This document shows positions 4,640 through 57,934 of a stretch of DNA of 64,000 nt, piece by piece. Source of the DNA: Methylococcaceae bacterium (GTDB lineage: Bacteria > Pseudomonadota > Gammaproteobacteria > Methylococcales > Methylomonadaceae); NCBI GenBank assembly GCA_013140705.1, contig JABFSH010000008.1, positions 124,001 to 188,000 on the forward strand. The letters are read 5' to 3'. The notes beneath the pieces are model-generated. The model saw only the letters and a list, made by a program, of their open reading frames with translations, searched no databases and was not told the DNA's origin. How positions within the stretch are numbered: position 1 is the first letter of the stretch; every line of letters starts with the position of its first letter. A program made the translations under genes and the position numbers.

Positions 4640-7438
4640 TCATTGCACCACCAACCGAGTTACCAACTTTGTCGGCAAATGACCTCGCCAGACACCCCGC
4701 AAGGTACAGGACGGAACCTTACTACCCAAAGCCGGCGAAAACCAGCCCGACCTTGGCGAGTCACTCCCCCTAAACACGTCCCAGTGCCAACTTGCATCGA
4801 CAAATACCGTCATTCGGCGCTCAGAACCGAGTTTCGTGACTTGCCATGTTCCCGGATGAACACCAGGCACTACGTCAATATCCGGCGCAAAATGAAAATG
4901 TATGGCCACATCATGTGCACCATGCCCTTGAATCTCGTCATAGAGGTTCATTTCAGCATCCGAACCCTGCAGAACCACACGACGTTTGTGGATGCCTGCG
5001 GCCTTCCTATAACCATCATGTTCGCCGGTCACCCATTGCGTGCCATCGGCATCCTCTCCCTGAGCGATTATTTTTCCCTGAGCATGCCGCAACCACAGGA
5101 AGGGACCGCCGATTTCTGACTGATTCCTACCGTCAATCACTAAGGTGTTGTGCGCTGCCGTTCCCCGAAAATAATCCCGCCAGCCATGATCACTGTGATA
5201 GGCGTAGGTACCGGGATCCACCAACCACCAGAAGCCATCAACTGCAAGGCAGACACTTAGTGCATCGGCATGCCCATGCGCAGCAATAGACGGATAACCT
5301 AAAGACCCGGCATCAAACACCAGATGCAAAACCGAATTGCCCAAAACAGCATAGCCGCCTTTCGGAAATAACCTGGGATAAGTTGCCTGGGTGACCTGCC
5401 TTGGCCTGATCGGCAATGGCTTATTATCAAAGCACAATGTGTACCAAAATGCTTTTTGGGAGAATGTGGTCGGTGTGGATACGTTATCAAAAACCGCTTC
5501 AACCGCCGCTAAAACGTCGCGATAGGGATTTTGAGGCCATGCAACACTGAAGCGCGTGACAAACCCATCATCAGCATCACCAATTTGAGGTGGGAGACAG
5601 TCTATCAATGCTGTTGACTTTAGTTGTTCGTCCTGAGCCTGTCGAAGTGCAGGCTGATCAGATTCCCCTTTCCGTTCGTCCTGAGCCTGTCGAAGGGCAA
5701 ACTGATCAGACTCCCTTTCCCGTTCGTCCTGAGCTTGTCGAAGGGCAAACTCCCTTTCCCGTTCGTCCTGAGCTTGTCGAAGGGCGGAAAAACTAGTCGA
5801 GTCGTTTGGTTCATGCTTCGACAAGCTCAGCACGAACGGCTTGAATTTCGACAAACTCGGCACCGACGGTTCAAACTCCCCTTTCCGTTCGCCCTGAGCC
5901 TGTCGAAGGGCAAACTCCCTTGCCCGCTCGTCCTGAGCTTGTCGAAGGGCAAACTGATCAAATTCACTTTCCCGTTCGTCCTGAGCTTGTCGAAGGGCGG
6001 AAAAACTAGTCGATTCGTTTGGTTCATGCTTCGACAAGCTCAGCACGAACGGCTTGAATTTCGACAAACTCGGCACCGACGGTTCAAACTCCCCTTTCCG
6101 TTCGCCCTGAGCCTGTCGAAGGGCAAACTCCCTTGCCCGCTCGTCCTGAGCTTGTCGAAGGGCAAACTGATCAAATTCCCTTTCCCGTTCGTCCTGAGCC
6201 TGTCGAAGGGCAAACTGATCAGACTCCCTTTCCCGTTCGTCCTGAGCTTGTCGAAGGACTGTCAAATTCATCGACTCGGCTCGTTCATGCTTCGACAAGC
6301 TCAGCACGAACGGCTTGAATTTCGACAGGCTCAGCACGAACGGTTTGGACTTCGACAAGCTCGGGACGGACGGGTTTGGCGTTGTCTCCACACTACATCC
6401 TGGTGAAATGGCTTGCAGAAACCCGGCCATTGAAACAATGCGTTCGGCAAAAGCCTCCGAAAAATGTTGCCCCCGGCGCAATCCAACAAGCCAGGCAAAC
6501 AGAAAATAGTCCAGAACCCATAAGTGATAATAACTGGCCTGTTCCTTATTTACGCCGTCATCGAAAACCTGCAAGCGTGCTTCGCGCTCAAGTGCCTCTT
6601 GTGCAAAAAGGGCCCAGCGGTCGCCATGTCGGCCCAGATCAAAAACACTGCAGGCAACCCAAATTCCGGTTAATTCACCAATTAAATGATTATTGGCCGA
6701 CGAATCACGGGATAGGAAATGACGCACAAAATGAGTTTGCTGGTAAATGGCCTGGCCCAGTTTGACTGGATCGGAAACAGCTGAGAACAATCCGGCTTCA
6801 CCGTCCCGCAGCGTCAGCAAACTGTGTATGACCGCCCAGGAAATCAGCCGTAACGCCGGCTCCAGTGCGCTGCACCAGTGAATTCCCATGCCATAAGGGT
6901 TCTGTTGCATCCAGCTTTCAATCTGCTTTATAACGGCATCGCGATATCGAAGTTCGCCGGTACAGGCATAAGCCGCAGCGAGCGGAATCAAATGCTGGTG
7001 CCTGCCCAGTTCCCACAAAAACTTGATATTACCTACCAGACGATCATCCCGGTAATTCAACGTTTTACCAAAGGTGAGCGGCGCTTCAATGCCTGTCAGG
7101 GGATCGCGATGCCAATTAATCGATTCCCCCATATCCAGCGGAGCCTGCCCAAAAAAACCTATACGACCTTTCAATAATTCATTTAATGATTCCAGCTCCA
7201 GACTGAAATGTTCCTGCCAGGTCTTCATCCAGTCTTCCGGAGCTACAAACAATGACAGACGGGGCTTGACGGGACATGCCGGTTTAGGCATCCAGGCCCG
7301 TGCAACCGCCCATTGCTCCAGACGCTGACTGGCCATATCGGTCACGCGATGTATGACCTCAAGCACCGTCATTGCCCGCAGACGGTTGATTTTCCAGAGA
7401 AAACCGCTTACTTTTCGACGAGATACTGACGATGCCAT
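4640..7438 (-). CDS. Heparinase II/III-family polysaccharide lyase with a ~250-residue REP-encoded insertion
   Basis: The N-terminal alpha-helical toroid domain starts with KINRLRAMTVLEVIHRV, typical of EPS-locus heparinase II/III proteins. The C-terminal beta-sandwich has AHGHADALSV (about residue 720), DPGTYAYHSDHGWRDYFRG and AHNTLVIDG. Between them, just before PPQIGDADDG, sits an insertion translated from REP copies (about 5617-6376; repeated ALRQAQDERE, FVLSLSKHE, PSVPSLSK). Without it the protein would be about 690 residues, the family norm. The frame is open throughout, so every repeat unit kept the phase. No signal peptide is evident. I chose ATG 7438; ATG 7462 is an alternative eight residues upstream. 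Both overlap the end of the upstream amidotransferase gene. It may cleave or edit the uronate-containing polymer. Whether the inserted protein is active is unknown. Confidence 0.85.
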   Translation of the reverse strand: MASSVSRRKVSGFLWKINRLRAMTVLEVIHRVTDMASQRLEQWAVARAWMPKPACPVKPRLSLFVAPEDWMKTWQEHFSLELESLNELLKGRIGFFGQAPLDMGESINWHRDPLTGIEAPLTFGKTLNYRDDRLVGNIKFLWELGRHQHLIPLAAAYACTGELRYRDAVIKQIESWMQQNPYGMGIHWCSALEPALRLISWAVIHSLLTLRDGEAGLFSAVSDPVKLGQAIYQQTHFVRHFLSRDSSANNHLIGELTGIWVACSVFDLGRHGDRWALFAQEALEREARLQVFDDGVNKEQASYYHLWVLDYFLFAWLVGLRRGQHFSEAFAERIVSMAGFLQAISPGCSVETTPNPSVPSLSKSKPFVLSLSKFKPFVLSLSKHERAESMNLTVLRQAQDERERESDQFALRQAQDEREREFDQFALRQAQDERAREFALRQAQGERKGEFEPSVPSLSKFKPFVLSLSKHEPNESTSFSALRQAQDERESEFDQFALRQAQDERAREFALRQAQGERKGEFEPSVPSLSKFKPFVLSLSKHEPNDSTSFSALRQAQDEREREFALRQAQDERERESDQFALRQAQDERKGESDQPALRQAQDEQLKSTALIDCLPPQIGDADDGFVTRFSVAWPQNPYRDVLAAVEAVFDNVSTPTTFSQKAFWYTLCFDNKPLPIRPRQVTQATYPRLFPKGGYAVLGNSVLHLVFDAGSLGYPSIAAHGHADALSVCLAVDGFWWLVDPGTYAYHSDHGWRDYFRGTAAHNTLVIDGRNQSEIGGPFLWLRHAQGKIIAQGEDADGTQWVTGEHDGYRKAAGIHKRRVVLQGSDAEMNLYDEIQGHGAHDVAIHFHFAPDIDVVPGVHPGTWQVTKLGSERRMTVFVDASWHWDVFRGSDSPRSGWFSPALGSKVPSCTLRGVWRGHLPTKLVTRLVVQ
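5617..6376. repeat. REP cluster inside the heparinase coding sequence
   Basis: About 16 half or full copies of the TTCGTCCTGAGCCTGTCGAA type repeat lie in alternating orientations, spaced by short segments such as GGGCAAACTCCCTTTCCCG. A 210-bp segment (5787-5996) is tandemly duplicated at 5997-6206. The duplicated length is 70 codons, and the reading frame of the lyase is uninterrupted across the cluster. Confidence 0.92.
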
Positions 7439-13893: not shown

Positions 13894-14156
13894 TAGTTCT
13901 TACCTTCATAAAAGGGATCTACTGAAAACAGACTCAGCCAATCGTGGTGAGCCTGTCGAACCATACTCGCATCACACCGTTCGTGGTGAGCCTGTCGAAC
14001 CATACTCGCATCACACCGTTCGTGGTGAGCCTGTCGAACCATACTCGCATCACACCGTTCGTGGTGAGCCTGTCGAACCATGAACGGATTAACCATCCTT
14101 GCAACAAGGGCAGAAATTAACTTGTCCATGCCCAAAATACCCAGCGCATTTTTCAT
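13893..14156 (-). other. Doubtful 87-codon frame containing a 13-residue tandem repeat
   Basis: The frame reads MKNALGILGMDKLISALVAR, then four copies of a 13-residue unit (MVRQAHHERCDAS), then DWLSLFSVDPFYEGKN. The middle is REP-derived. The non-repeat ends and the TAATG overlap with the amidotransferase start are what one expects of a small coupled gene invaded by a repeat. The ribosome binding site is poor. It could equally be a chance frame. Confidence 0.3.
13941..14087. repeat. Tandem 39-bp repeat, 3.8 copies
   Basis: The unit is TTCGTGGTGAGCCTGTCGAA followed by CCATACTCGCATCACACCG. Three full copies start at 13941 (first base pair variant), 13980 and 14019, and a partial copy at 14058. 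Copies are essentially identical, which points to recent expansion. The core is a variant of the locus-wide REP. Confidence 0.92.
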
Positions 14157-21779: not shown

Positions 21780-24050
21780 GCATCTACTTCAGACTTTACA
21801 CAGAGAAATCTTGTCAATATAAATCCGCTGCATAATCTGGCAAGAGTCAATCCACAGGCAGAACTTAAATGTTAATCCGCAAGTGAATACGGCAAAAATC
21901 AATCCACAAGTGAGCCCACCTAAAGTCAATTCACAGACAGCGTAAAAGTCAATCCGTTCGTACTGAGCCTGTCGAAGTATGAACGGATTGACTTTGGGCC
22001 TAGCAACATGCAACTCCCCAGTCTCCCGCCATTTTCTCCTTTCATCCTTCGACAGGCTCAGGACGAACGGAGAAAATGGTGAATCACCATCTACCCACAT
22101 TCTTTAGACTTTGCTCAGGAAAGCCTGGTAAAAATATCCATACCCTCACAAATTTCCTGCTGTCCTGTGCATACCGCAAGTGAATACTGCCAATGTAAAT
22201 CCGAAGCAGAACCCACCAAAAGTCAATCCACAGGCAGAATTTAAATATTTATCCACAAGTGAGCCCACCTAAAGCCAATTCACAGGCAGAGTAAAAGTCA
22301 ATCCGTTCGTACTGAGCCTGTCGAAGTATGAGCGGATTGACTTTGGGCCAATCGACTGACGACTTCCCAATCACCCCGCATCATGGCTTCCTTTTTATTA
22401 CGACTCCAGCCTTTTATTTGCCTCTCTGCCGACAAGGCTTCTTCTCGGGTTACCGTCTCTTGAGACCAGACAAACTCTACAGGAAGGCGCTTTGCAGTAT
22501 ATCCGGTGCACTCTCCTGCCTGATATTGAGCCATTCTCCTTTCAAGATCATCGGTATGTCCCGTGTAGTAACTGCCATCAGCACAACGAAGAATATAAAC
22601 CCAAAACATGTTTCCCCTCATTTTTCTGGAATAGAAGTCGCGTCGACTCCCGCCATTTTCTCCTTTCATCCTTCGACAGGCTCAGGACGAACGGAGAAAA
22701 TGTAAATCACCCTCTACCCACACTCTTTAGACTTTGCTCAGGATAGCCTTGTAAAAATATCCATACCCTCACAAATTTCCTGCTGTCCTGTGCATACCGC
22801 AAGTGAATACTGCCAATGTAAATCCGAAGCAGAACCCACCAAAAGTCAATCCACAGGCAGAATTTAAATATTTATCCACAAGTGAGCCCGACAAAAGCCA
22901 ATTCACAGGCAGCGTAAAAGTCAATCCGTTCGTACTGAGCCTGTCGAAGTATGAACGGATTGACTTTGGGCCTAGCAACATGAAACTCCCCAGTCTCCCG
23001 CCATTTTCTCCTTTCATCCTTCGACAGGCTCAGGACGAACGGAGAAAATGGTAAATCACCATCTACCCACACTCTTTAGACTTTGCTCAGGATAGCCTGG
23101 TAAAAATATCCATACCCTCACAAATTTCCTGCTGTCCTGTGCATACCGCAAGTGAATACGGCAAAAATCAATCCGCAACTGAGCCCACCTAAAGCCAATT
23201 CACAGGCAGCGTAAAAGTCAATCCGTTCGTACTGAGCCTGTCGAAGTATGAGCGGATTGACTTTGGGCCTAGCAACATGAAACTCCCCAGTCTCCCGCCA
23301 TTTTCTCCTTTCATCCTTCGACAGGCTCAGGACGAACGGAGAAAATGGTGAATCACCATCTACTCACATTCTTTAGACTTTGCTCAGGAAAGCCTGGTAA
23401 AAATATCCATACCCTCACAAATTTCCTGCTGTCCTGTGCATACCGCAAGTGAATACTGCCAATGTAAATCCGAAGCAGAACCCTTCAAAAGTCATTCCGC
23501 AACTGAGCCCACCTAAAGCCAATTCACAGGCAGCGTAAAAGTCAATCCGTTCGTGCTGAGCCTGTCGAAGTATGAACGGATTGACTTTGGGCCTAGCAAC
23601 ATGCAACTTCCCAGTCTCCCGCCATTTTCTCCATTCATCCTTCGACAGGCTCAGGACGAACGGAGAAAATGGTGAATCACCCTCTACCCACACTCTTTAG
23701 ACTTTGCTCAGGATAGCCTTGTAAAAATATCCATACCCTCACAAATTTCCTGCTGTCCTGTGCATACCGCAAGTGAATACGGCAAAAATCAATCCGCAAC
23801 TGAGCCCACCTAAAGCCAATTCACAGGCAGCGTAAAAGTCAATCCGTTCGTACTGAGCCTGTCGAAGTATGAGCGGATTGACTTTGGGCCTAGCAACATG
23901 AAACTCCCCAGTCTCCCGCCATTTTCTCCTTTCATCCTTCGACAGGCTCAGGACGAACGGAGAAAATGGTGTATCACCATCTACCACACTCTTTAGATTT
24001 TACTCAGGACGAACGAAAAAATGTTTCACCGTATCGTGGCTAAAGTCAGT
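21780..24050. repeat. Array of six ~300-bp repeat units
   Basis: Each unit contains two hairpins: one built on GTCAATCCGTTCGTACTGAG with its inverse AGTATGAACGGATTGACT, and one built on CCATTTTCTCCTTTCATCC with its inverse. The first hairpin occurs at about 21948, 22295, 22918, 23215, 23543 and 23838. Most units also share CATACCCTCACAAATTTCCT and TGTGCATACCGCAAGTGAAT. Spacing is about 295-350 bp except for the second unit, which is lengthened by a nuclease gene inserted between its two hairpins. Within units a ~25-bp degenerate motif (AAAGTCAATCCACAGGCAG) recurs. Copies are near identical. This is not CRISPR: there are no unique spacers and no cas genes. Confidence 0.93.
22298..22609 (-). 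CDS. GIY-YIG single-domain nuclease embedded in a repeat unit
   Basis: This 103-aa protein starts MFWVYILRCADGSYYTGHTD, with the GIY...YIG positions as VYI and YTG. It also has the catalytic arginine region LERRMAQYQAGEC and the metal-binding glutamate in ALSAERQIKGWSR. All catalytic positions of the UvrC-N-like small GIY-YIG family are present. The ATG at 22609 is preceded by GAGGGG; the frame extends to 22669 only by reading repeat sequence. The C-terminal dozen residues (about SAHTSTGSVRTD) are also translated from repeat DNA. The gene sits between the two hairpins of one unit of a six-unit array. A role in spreading or maintaining the repeat is attractive but unproven; DNA repair is the alternative. 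Confidence 0.9.
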   Translation of the reverse strand: MFWVYILRCADGSYYTGHTDDLERRMAQYQAGECTGYTAKRLPVEFVWSQETVTREEALSAERQIKGWSRNKKEAMMRGDWEVVSRLAQSQSAHTSTGSVRTD

Positions 24051-29689: not shown

Positions 29690-29910
29690 CCTTTAAAAAT
29701 AACTTCCCGAAATCGCCAAACCGTTCGTGCTGAGCTTGTCGAAGCATGAATGGCTTGTCGCTACAGAGTGGAATTTTTCTGTCCATCCTTCGACAAGGCT
29801 ATCCTGAGCACAGTCGAAGGGCTCAGCACGAATGGATCAGTAACTGATTTAACTTAACACCCGTTCGCACTGAGCTTGTCGAAGTGCAATTTTTAGAGGT
29901 CTCCTTAAGA
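29690..29910. repeat. Composite repeat, left part, plus REP half with TTTTTAGAGG end
   Basis: AAAAATAACTTCCCGAAATC (29694) is followed by REP hairpins and ATCCTTCGACAAGGCTATCC, then GTTCGCACTGAGCTTGTCGA and TTTTTAGAGGTCTCCTTAAG at about 29892. The last motif also ends repeats at 33490, 34913, 40200 and 45356. The remaining spacer up to 30067 shows no gene. Confidence 0.65.
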
Positions 29911-55897: not shown

Positions 55898-57934
55898 TTA
55901 TTGAAGCTTGGTGAATAATGATGGATCAATTCGACAGCCTCCAATCTCGGGATGATCGATTACGTCTTGTTCAAAATCTCGGAAAGTCGGTAACTGAAAG
56001 GCAATGCGATTGATTTTTCCGCCTGAAAACTGAAATTCCATGGCCCCGCCCTTGGCGCGAGGACTTCCGGCTTTTGTAGTAAATAACACGATACCTTCAT
56101 GACCAATCTGATCACCTTGCTGTTGGGGCGTGGGTCGTGCGCAACTAAGTTCACTGATCTGTAGACTGGAAAAAACCTGTGCTAACTGCCCCGCTTTCAC
56201 AATAAGACCTTCGCCGGGAATGCTTATGGTTTGGGGACTTGTTGCTGTCTGCGACGTATCCTTGTTGGCATTAGCACCGGTATTGTTGACGGGTGGTGCT
56301 AAAGGTGCAGGACTGGGAACAGGCGCTGTTACTGGAGTCGGTGCCGTTGTTGGTGTTGGTGTTGGTGTTGGTGTTGGTGTTGGTGTTGGATTCAGCATCG
56401 CTTCCAAACCAAAATCCCCTAAATGATTTTGTAATAAAACGGTTCCGTCGCCACCTTTTGTCGTCGACAACAAAGGAAACAACTGACGTTCCATTTCTTT
56501 AACATTGACAGTTTTTAAAACTGCCAATAATTGTCGTTCTATTGATTTCAGTGGTGTAAAGGTCTGCTCTTTTTTCTGACTGGATTCGCCCATCAATTCC
56601 CAATCAGCCGGCGAATTAACAAGCAAACCCAATGACTTCATGACACTGTAGTCGTCTGAATTCAGACAATTACCAAAACCTTTGCTGCGATAGTCGCTAA
56701 CGACTTTCGCACTCAATTCACCCGACGTGGCTTTTTGCGGGCTTATATTATAGTTTTTCCAGTCATCGCTGTTGGATAAGAAATAATAAATGAACGCATT
56801 GCGATCAAATTTGTTAAAGCCCAAATCCTTCATGACTAATTTAATCTTTCGGCAGTTGCTTTCCACTTCCGCGTAATTATTCCATTTCGGCATTAAATTC
56901 GGTTTGGCCGGATGCTTGGATTGCTCAATTAACTGCTGTAATTTAATTTCGCCGCTCGCTGACTTGATCGGGGAATAGCTGATTTCATCAAAAGTAAGAT
57001 CTCTGGCATCGGGGATACCGTTTGCGCTGGATTTTAGCAATAACGATGAAATTATTTCGGGGTATATTTTGAGCTCCCCCAGCGGTTGATTGTTTGAACC
57101 GAATACATTTACTCCGCCCTCTTCCACTGCATAGACTTTAAAGATTGTTTGATTTAATACGCCAGTTTTGCCGCCATAACTGACCGTCTCCGGCAGGGTA
57201 TGCGATTCGGAACTGTTTTTTGTCGAATTGATTTTCGGCGCAGTGATGGCGGGTGTCGTTGTTGTCGTAGCAGACGGCGTTTTGCTGTTCGACGATGTCG
57301 GTTCTATGGGAACTATTTTTTTCGCACTTTCAGACCACTGCCCGGCATACTGGCCCAAAATGGAAACACCCAAACCCACGCCAGTAAAGGAAAGTAAATT
57401 GCCAGCCGTCGTGACATCACCTAACAGCCCGGTAACGTCGACATCACTGTTGGCACTGGAATAAAAACTGTAATCCACTGTTGTTTGTTTACCGGTATCC
57501 AGTCGCATCCAGGGCGTCAGCACCAGTTTTTTTGCTTCAAATTTAAAGTTACATTTCCCTGTGGTCGCCTGATAGGAAAATCCAACCGCATCATTATTAA
57601 GTTTAAGCAGATCATTACGAACGCTAAAAATAAGTGCAGACGACATATCATTCTTCTCATACGACGGCCCTACATTGTTACAGCCACTTTTCACAATGTT
57701 GTCACCTTTGAAATCAAATTCGGAAATCAAGCGCACATAATAATCGTCGCCGTCGATAAACTGAAAACCTGGAATGGGTTGGAAATGATGACTTTTCGTC
57801 GTCGGTCCAGACTCATTTTCACTGACGTCTGCAGAAGGAAAATCCACTGCGATTTGCCGGGTTGATGAACAACCCAACAAAATCATGCTAGTGAACAAAC
57901 TAAATTTCAAAGCACCATTAGATCGAATCAACAT
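55898..57934 (-). CDS. Large hypothetical lipoprotein with PT-repeat linker
   Basis: This 678-aa protein has a lipoprotein signal with lipobox LLGC (Cys22), so it is membrane-anchored. Three regions are visible: residues about 40-200 with no known fold; about 230-510 containing FNKFDRNAFIYYFLSNSDDW-like segments; and a C-terminal part after a proline-threonine linker (PTPTPTPTPTPTPTTAPTP, about 510-530). The C-terminal 110 residues have LSCARPTPQQQGDQIGHEGI. I recognise no family. It is convergent with the VPLPA-CTERM gene, a surface-protein neighbourhood, and may be involved in surface attachment; this is inference. Confidence 0.83.
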   Translation of the reverse strand: MLIRSNGALKFSLFTSMILLGCSSTRQIAVDFPSADVSENESGPTTKSHHFQPIPGFQFIDGDDYYVRLISEFDFKGDNIVKSGCNNVGPSYEKNDMSSALIFSVRNDLLKLNNDAVGFSYQATTGKCNFKFEAKKLVLTPWMRLDTGKQTTVDYSFYSSANSDVDVTGLLGDVTTAGNLLSFTGVGLGVSILGQYAGQWSESAKKIVPIEPTSSNSKTPSATTTTTPAITAPKINSTKNSSESHTLPETVSYGGKTGVLNQTIFKVYAVEEGGVNVFGSNNQPLGELKIYPEIISSLLLKSSANGIPDARDLTFDEISYSPIKSASGEIKLQQLIEQSKHPAKPNLMPKWNNYAEVESNCRKIKLVMKDLGFNKFDRNAFIYYFLSNSDDWKNYNISPQKATSGELSAKVVSDYRSKGFGNCLNSDDYSVMKSLGLLVNSPADWELMGESSQKKEQTFTPLKSIERQLLAVLKTVNVKEMERQLFPLLSTTKGGDGTVLLQNHLGDFGLEAMLNPTPTPTPTPTPTPTTAPTPVTAPVPSPAPLAPPVNNTGANANKDTSQTATSPQTISIPGEGLIVKAGQLAQVFSSLQISELSCARPTPQQQGDQIGHEGIVLFTTKAGSPRAKGGAMEFQFSGGKINRIAFQLPTFRDFEQDVIDHPEIGGCRIDPSLFTKLQ
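56345..56392. repeat. Hexanucleotide microsatellite in the lipoprotein gene
   Basis: About seven copies of GGTGTT (plus strand), encoding Thr-Pro dipeptides in the linker. Each unit is two codons, so copy-number changes would alter linker length without a frameshift. Confidence 0.88.

Follow-up and report, generated by a model that had tools for sequence, protein, structure and literature searches.

The hairpin array and its nuclease gene

The window, the whole stretch of 64,000 nucleotides from a Methylococcaceae bacterium that was analysed, carries an array of six similar units with their linkers at positions 21780-24050. Each unit is made of two inverted hairpins of about 51 nt around a common 15-nt core, which has the R orientation in the left hairpin (CTGAGCYTGTCGAAG) and the F orientation in the right one (CTTCGACARGCTCAG). 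Unit 1 (21945-22079) has its R hairpin at 21945-21995 and its F hairpin at 22029-22079, and this arrangement returns in unit 3 (22917-23051; R at 22917-22967, F at 23001-23051), unit 4 (23214-23348; R at 23214-23264, F at 23298-23348), unit 5 (23538-23672; R at 23538-23588, F at 23622-23672) and unit 6 (23835-23969; R at 23835-23885, F at 23919-23969). The two hairpins of unit 2 are separated by an intact open reading frame for a GIY-YIG nuclease. The hairpin downstream of this gene, at 22294-22344, overlaps its 3' end (core 22312-22326, R on the plus strand), and the upstream hairpin lies at 22653-22702 (core 22671-22685, F on the plus strand). Along the array the core-to-core spacing is 297, 324, 297 and 348-349 nt, and 623-624 nt where the gene intervenes. 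The copies of this repeat family (D1) are 95-96% identical, apart from the last one (70%), the right end of which is degenerate. Mapping of the repeat and of the core over 21.8-24.0 kb bears out the original prediction of six units with two hairpins each.

The nuclease gene is found on the minus strand at 22298-22609 and encodes 103 amino acids, as delimited by the reading frame, a Shine-Dalgarno sequence and the alignment of homologues. The likely start is Met21 of the listed frame, for which both the alignment and a GAGGGG Shine-Dalgarno sequence just upstream, recognised by eye, speak. The C-terminal residues HTSTGSVRTD are encoded by the hairpin, so the earlier description of an intact gene between the hairpins of unit 2, with a tail translated from the repeat itself, was right. 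The protein belongs to the GIY-YIG superfamily: the longer frame matches PF01541 with 65 bits (6.8e-18), and Y5, G17, R25 and E62 are invariant in an alignment of 53 rows, i.e. the window protein and 52 of 80 homologue loci. We take the tyrosine, arginine and glutamate to be the expected catalytic residues of the GIY-YIG active site. No further Pfam domain was found in this single small domain, and no family matched it in PHROGs, PADLOC or NCBIfam at E 0.001. The structure model has a mean pLDDT of 74.6; in Foldseek its first match is UPF0213, and Slx1 follows only at E 0.03 and weaker. The UPF0213 proteins (PDB 1zg2, 1ywl) have the domain in common with the nuclease and are the nearest solved structures. 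Slx1 is, according to its PDB title, a processor of branched DNA, and the weak likeness of the model fits an action of the nuclease on the folded hairpin but does not show it.

The spacers of units 1 and 3-6 resemble the nuclease gene, with alignment scores that were matched by 2-15 of 500 shuffles per unit in a test where the array units are not independent of one another, and the spacer of unit 3 aligns at the collinear position at the 3' end of the gene. Judged from these alignments, this suggests that the array units may be internal-deletion products of the gene-bearing unit. A second copy of the gene in the source genome (L006) has lost its 5' half and is bounded by the core. The proposed status of the other five units as non-autonomous derivatives gains moderate support from the spacers, which beat most shuffles, and from this truncated gene.

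The core repeat in the genome

REP and REPIN sequences are imperfect palindromes of 20-40 nt that occur in many copies per genome, often as inverted pairs. The core CTTCGACARGCTCAG is present in 111 copies (50 + 61) in the 4.28-Mb genome and the backwards-read control in none, and its abundance is therefore not due to chance. Hairpin pairs are 47-75 nt apart, mostly 53-63, as measured in stretches chosen for holding pairs. When the flanks of 239 distinct copies were compared, positions -1/+1 were paired in 95% (49% expected) and -2/+2 in 85% (45% expected), and positions -10 to -16 still in 38-46% (25-30% expected), with all four pair types and z values of 4.7-6.3. The expected pairing was obtained by shuffling the partners; kinship among the copies inflates every z, and when the partners were slid one position z was mostly low and reached 4.5. 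The hairpin thus appears to be conserved as a structure, and the core tends to form the centre of longer palindromes of varied sequence. Many copies, inverted pairs and covarying pairing are all features that this repeat has in common with REPs and REPINs.

Di Nocera et al. 2013 (PMC3733652) divide REPs into a GTAG and a CGTC class. The repeat of the window lacks the unpaired GTAG tag at one end that marks the first class: GTAG or its complement is found not more than 20 nt from the core in 30 of the 239 copies, and in at most 7 at any single position. Nor does it have the unpaired CGTC tag, the stem of 8-9 bp and the CCA tail of the second class; CGTC adjoins the core in 68 of the 239 copies, but these positions are paired and variable.

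Homologous genes and their flanks

Using the 84-residue domain without its tail as query, we obtained 486 confirmed relatives in named genomes and took the best 80, which include Methylococcales, Nitrosomonadales, Thiocapsa, Desulfobulbaceae, Sphingomonadales, Nitrospira and a Zixibacterium. An exact core is found within 100 bp of the homologue at 44 of the 80 loci, within 250 bp at 47 (on both sides at 32 of these) and within 1 kb at 51; it is upstream at 39 loci and downstream at 40. The nearest upstream core is in R orientation in 32 of 39 cases and the nearest downstream core in F orientation in 34 of 40, with both at 26 loci. The density of cores over the 80 loci is 1.71/kb in the gene and 250 bp on each side, against 0.067/kb past 500 bp. 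If up to 3 mismatches are allowed, a core is present at 61 of the 80 loci (4.70/kb near the gene and 0.204/kb far from it), and at 5 of 24 loci of distant GIY-YIG genes, counted anywhere in the locus. Homologues in related genomes had been expected to be flanked by the same hairpins, and 47 of 80 loci, spread over many lineages, do have the core nearby; the pattern that had been named as speaking against it, homologues consistently away from the repeat, is contradicted by the cores beside the gene in these lineages.

At 33 of the 80 loci no exact core lies within 250 bp; these loci were kept in all counts, and just two of them (L059, L061) lie so near a contig end that a flank is shorter than 250 nt. 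Most Sphingomonads are among the core-less loci, and there the gene holds one place, before an RNA methyltransferase gene. In L089, L092, L096, L102 and other loci of the Sphingomonad type the GIY-YIG frame is open into this following gene. Another neighbourhood is seen in Methylomicrobium sp. wino1 (L047, 25-2849), where the unit adjoins putative type I restriction-modification genes, which we take from their look to be the subunits of such a system.

A scan of hairpin energy that does not depend on the core gave a median percentile of 0.50 downstream of the homologues, where 12 of 79 fall into the top 5%, and of 0.39 upstream, where 23 of 79 do so; at control loci the figure was 1 of 24 on each side. 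The scan gave little, and the case therefore stands on the sequence of the repeat and not on folding in general.

Specificity was assessed with GIY-YIG loci from the class, from the relatives and from a search for the rluD-JAB locus that is described below, with L148, which repeats L006, counted once. The core is present at 9 of 11 distinct loci with at least 58% identity and at 0 of 52 with less than 50% identity. Two of the 11 (L232, L234) come from the rluD-JAB search, and some are apparently also in the named set, having the same tails. That none of the 52 more distant GIY-YIG loci has an exact core nearby sets the nuclease of the window apart from UPF0213 proteins. When 185 genomes of the class were compared, 10 or more cores were found in 5 of the 6 that have the subfamily and in 2 of the 179 that do not (Fisher 7e-8), G179 being left out as a member (a 28-residue fragment of 54% identity at a contig edge, in a genome with no cores). 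Of the two exceptions, G107 has 87 cores and as its sole GIY-YIG match an 804-aa frame, the size of UvrC, with no subfamily member, and G169 has 14 cores and no GIY-YIG member at 58% identity or more. Several cores of G107 (L287-L296) form R..F pairs with a distance of about 40 nt. For 50 of the 80 named loci the whole genome was searched as well, and 46 of these genomes contain the core, in up to 195 copies, as compared with 3 matches in total for the backwards control in all 50. By these comparisons a single GIY-YIG subfamily is specifically paired with the core, repeatedly across phyla and with a strong orientation bias, and we regard the association of this subfamily with the repeat as almost certain.

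Presence, absence and inversion of the gene-bearing unit

In the family of G263, two genes that we take, from their sequences, to be rluD and a gene for a JAB-domain protein are arranged back to back. The JAB gene was matched in 88 of 99 genomes of this family, and the best 30 of the 88 were compared. The gap between the two genes is empty (25 nt or less) in 18 of the 30, contains hairpin, gene and hairpin in 3, a solo exact core in 1 and a degenerate solo hairpin, judged by eye, in 2; the remaining 6 are of other kinds. The three gaps with a full unit measure 372, 519 and 367 nt. One of them is that of L104 itself, and L234 has a degenerate downstream hairpin. The unit is inverted in L091, where the gene reads towards rluD, and another locus likewise shows an inversion between L117 and L118, with 27 identical hairpin nucleotides. 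The ends of the unit are approximately CCGTTCGYCCTGAGCTTGTCGAAGGRC and its inverse. In L104 and L091 the open GIY-YIG frame continues across the hairpin and into the neighbouring gene, which is the JAB gene in L104 and rluD in L091.

As is the case for insertion sequences, the unit is thus absent from a conserved site in relatives at rluD-JAB, and for the sister subfamily treated below the same is true between sufB and sufC. No target-site duplication is readable for the gene-bearing unit at these two sites, where the intergenic sequence is too diverged. Smaller events were seen when 15 close pairs of loci were compared: L055 differs from L056 by a second hairpin of 23 nt inserted at a hairpin tip that is intact in L056, L069 has a 23-nt tandem copy in two comparisons, and there are one 40-nt and one 93-nt difference that bear hairpins. 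A clean insertion of a whole unit was found in none of the 15 pairs. Presence, absence and inversion at conserved loci lend support to the claim of an autonomous element, and we are quite confident that hairpin, gene and hairpin together behave as a discrete mobile unit.

A sister subfamily beside CGTC REPs

According to PMC3733652, CGTC REPs, among them Neisseria dRS3 and Rickettsia RPE-4/6, show no association with transposase genes, and in H. neapolitanus CGTC dimers are nested in 41-bp palindromes. We searched for a sister subfamily with the GIY-YIG protein of L151 as query, the locus where a CGTC REP was first spotted and which also suggested the strict detector for such repeats. The strict detector was fixed before the flanks were viewed, and a relaxed one was written after viewing them. 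The strict detector finds CGTC REPs at 10 of 36 sister loci, with 1.23/kb near the gene against 0.074/kb far from it, and at 5 of the 80 homologue loci of the core family (0.015/kb). With the relaxed detector they are found at 28 of 38 sister loci (upstream at 25, downstream at 22, on both sides at 19), with a density of 3.96/kb near and 0.312/kb far, and the count is 25 of 35 without the known or picked loci L151, L284 and L285. Other sets of loci gave 16 of 80, 6 of 38, 1 of 30 and 0 of 24 with this detector, or 0 to 0.051/kb; the shuffled control for it is rough, as flanks were cut at oriented coordinates from unoriented loci.

The core CTTCGACA is absent from all 38 sister loci. The nearest upstream REP is in F orientation at 19 of 25 sister loci, and the nearest downstream one in R orientation at just 12 of 22; the weak bias downstream may be due to whole dimers, which often flank the sister gene. 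The stems on the two sides of one gene match each other, with a mean distance of 1.18 against 3.23 after permutation and 0 of 10,000 permutations as low, in a comparison of 17 of the 19 two-sided loci where the stems were typed by hand, L270 and L276 were dropped, orientation was ignored and a pair other than the nearest was used for L263. In Azospirillum lipoferum the sister gene separates sufB from sufC and is flanked on either side by REP dimers, and in five congeners that were compared it is absent from between these two genes. A record of Neisseria gonorrhoeae has the sister gene among CGTC repeats and without annotation in the listed, incomplete table; PMC3733652 equates the CGTC repeats of Neisseriae with dRS3. 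In a tree of 84 columns with weak support, and with the rows L254_B and L274_B to be disregarded as they come from the wrong strand, the core subfamily and the CGTC sister subfamily form separate groups with modest support. The CGTC REPs are, like the repeat of the window, without a RAYT, and they flank the sister subfamily in a similar arrangement, but the sequence of their hairpins is different.

A nuclease as probable partner of the repeat

We consider it probable, from the comparisons above, that the nuclease is the dedicated partner of a REP-like repeat without RAYT, and that gene and hairpins form one compact element. The element would be an inverted hairpin, the GIY-YIG gene and a second hairpin, in total about 350-410 bp. 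Association and mobility are shown by comparison, and cleavage of the hairpin by the nuclease is an inference: the enzyme would recognise it in its folded form, as a cruciform or single-stranded, and nick or cut it there. Host repair would then copy, invert, delete or re-insert hairpins and occasionally the entire unit. The element would have as its non-autonomous derivatives the solo hairpins, the pairs of hairpins and tandem arrays like that of the window. For a spread of the hairpins that is driven by the enzyme we see an even chance, or perhaps slightly better. The sister subfamily has the same place beside REPs with the CGTC tag and may have the same role, and that GIY-YIG nucleases provide the missing mobility enzyme for REPs without RAYT in general, both for the CTTCGACARGCTCAG family and for the CGTC superfamily (Neisseria dRS3 and others), is a tentative extension to which we give a little less than even chances.

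The most serious alternative is that the hairpins are passengers, spread inside MITEs by DDE-type TIR transposases, with the GIY-YIG gene as trapped cargo. In the source genome (G000, L154-L165), 11 of 12 dispersed hairpin pairs examined are indeed part of a MITE, about 121 nt long (120-139) and bounded by TIRs like GGGAACCTCTAAAAATT, and 6 of the 11 copies have an exact 4-bp target duplication of the TNNA type, so a classical transposase probably moved this subset. The proposal of the nuclease as mobilising or maintaining partner is therefore supported in part, by the pairing in many lineages and by the behaviour of the unit at conserved loci, but there is no support for a movement of all copies of the hairpin by this enzyme. 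In G232, several copies of the core share other outer inverted repeats, judged by eye. The outer repeats of the two sampled genomes hence differ, whereas the core and the GIY-YIG gene next to it are constant, and inspection of gene-bearing units by eye revealed no such TIR. Bacterial MITEs are likewise short, inverted and present in many copies, but the gene-bearing unit ends in hairpins and shows no target duplication that can be read. Since chance cargo explains neither the lack of cores at distant GIY-YIG loci nor the R...F bias, we find it unlikely that the hairpins as a whole are passengers.

Homing endonucleases cut the allele that lacks their gene, which is then copied in by repair, and GIY-YIG enzymes such as I-TevI and I-BmoI are homing endonucleases with mobile genes. 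The nuclease could be one of them with the hairpin as its site, so that the gene homes between copies of the repeat and the repeats themselves are not moved. A solo hairpin, an empty site and the full unit all occur at one locus, the gene is found in both orientations, as would be the case for a near-palindromic target, and the second hairpin at the hairpin tip in L055 versus L056 also agrees with this. However, the flanking hairpins are both complete in L104 and L091 and are not the halves of a split site, and the high number of repeats and the co-occurrence across genomes are left unexplained, and we find homing quite unlikely. The GIY-YIG fold and the mobility of the gene are common to I-TevI, I-BmoI and the nuclease of the window, but the latter is a single small domain and lies between hairpins.

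That the gene is an ordinary host repair nuclease, with hairpins favoured nearby as signals for transcription or RNA stability, appears highly unlikely. The hairpins are often found immediately before the start and at the stop codon, the Sphingomonad gene keeps its fixed place, and the upstream folding energy is somewhat enriched, but the presence, absence and inversion of the unit at conserved loci and the many dispersed copies of the hairpin speak against this reading. Finally, movement of the hairpins by a RAYT (a Y1 tyrosine transposase), with the GIY-YIG gene as a mere bystander, is very unlikely, despite 10 Y1_Tnp matches in the source genome. Against it speak 56 of 57 distinct Y1 loci without a core, and also 9 of 39 genomes with core and gene in which Y1_Tnp has no match, among them genomes with 153, 109 and 81 cores. 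The Y1 loci were taken as a first set (core at 0 of 38) and a further one (1 of 20) with one locus in common, and no core was found in the flanks (up to 1.5 kb) of the 8 examined of the 10 Y1_Tnp loci of the source genome. The remark in the original prediction that no RAYT is seen can apply at most to the window, as the genome has its 10 matches. L314 (G128) is the lone core-bearing Y1_Tnp locus among the 57.

Relation to known elements

We read the hairpin-flanked nuclease gene as a REPtron-like element in which a GIY-YIG nuclease replaces the Y1 transposase. REPtrons have a gene flanked by REPs, inverted pairs of REPs and co-occurrence of gene and repeat. These features are in part described in PMC3733652. 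In RAYT-REP REPtrons (TnpA_REP, GTAG REPs, REPINs), too, the gene is of low copy number and has REP-like hairpins at its flanks, hairpins occur elsewhere in numerous inverted pairs, and gene and repeat co-occur across genomes. The enzyme here is a GIY-YIG and not an HUH/Y1 protein, there is no conserved GTAG tag, and the core does not flank Y1/HUH transposase genes in the manner of a RAYT REPtron. Among the matches listed for the openly licensed PMC literature, no title or abstract opening ties GIY-YIG proteins to REPs, and a prior report is possible.

REP repeats are common in bacteria, and those of the GTAG class have a RAYT transposase as their partner. For the CGTC class, for which PMC3733652 reports no dedicated enzyme, the question of origin and upkeep gains a concrete candidate enzyme, as a specific nuclease family is found beside REPs without RAYT in several phyla, with empty and inverted sites. 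Should the nuclease cut the hairpins of its own repeat, the role of the RAYT would have been taken over by a second protein fold that is unrelated to it. Each subfamily with its hairpin ends would then be a class of prokaryotic mobile element with a single GIY-YIG enzyme of about 100 residues, and the hairpins would spread through structure-specific cutting and host repair. Such a unit of about 350 bp would, to our knowledge, be among the smallest autonomous mobile elements.

Other repeats in the window

A second and denser array is located at 5626-6373, with 14 copies of the core in units of about 39 and 48 nt, and 3.6 perfect copies of a 39-nt unit with the variant hairpin core GGTGAGCCTGTCGAACC are found at 13942-14081. 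Single or paired cores also occur at 833-905, 29730-29884, 34608, 41684 and 42791, and near 29800 one hairpin seems, by eye, to carry a second hairpin inserted at its tip. At 56348-56389 the hexamer TGTTGG is repeated in seven perfect copies.
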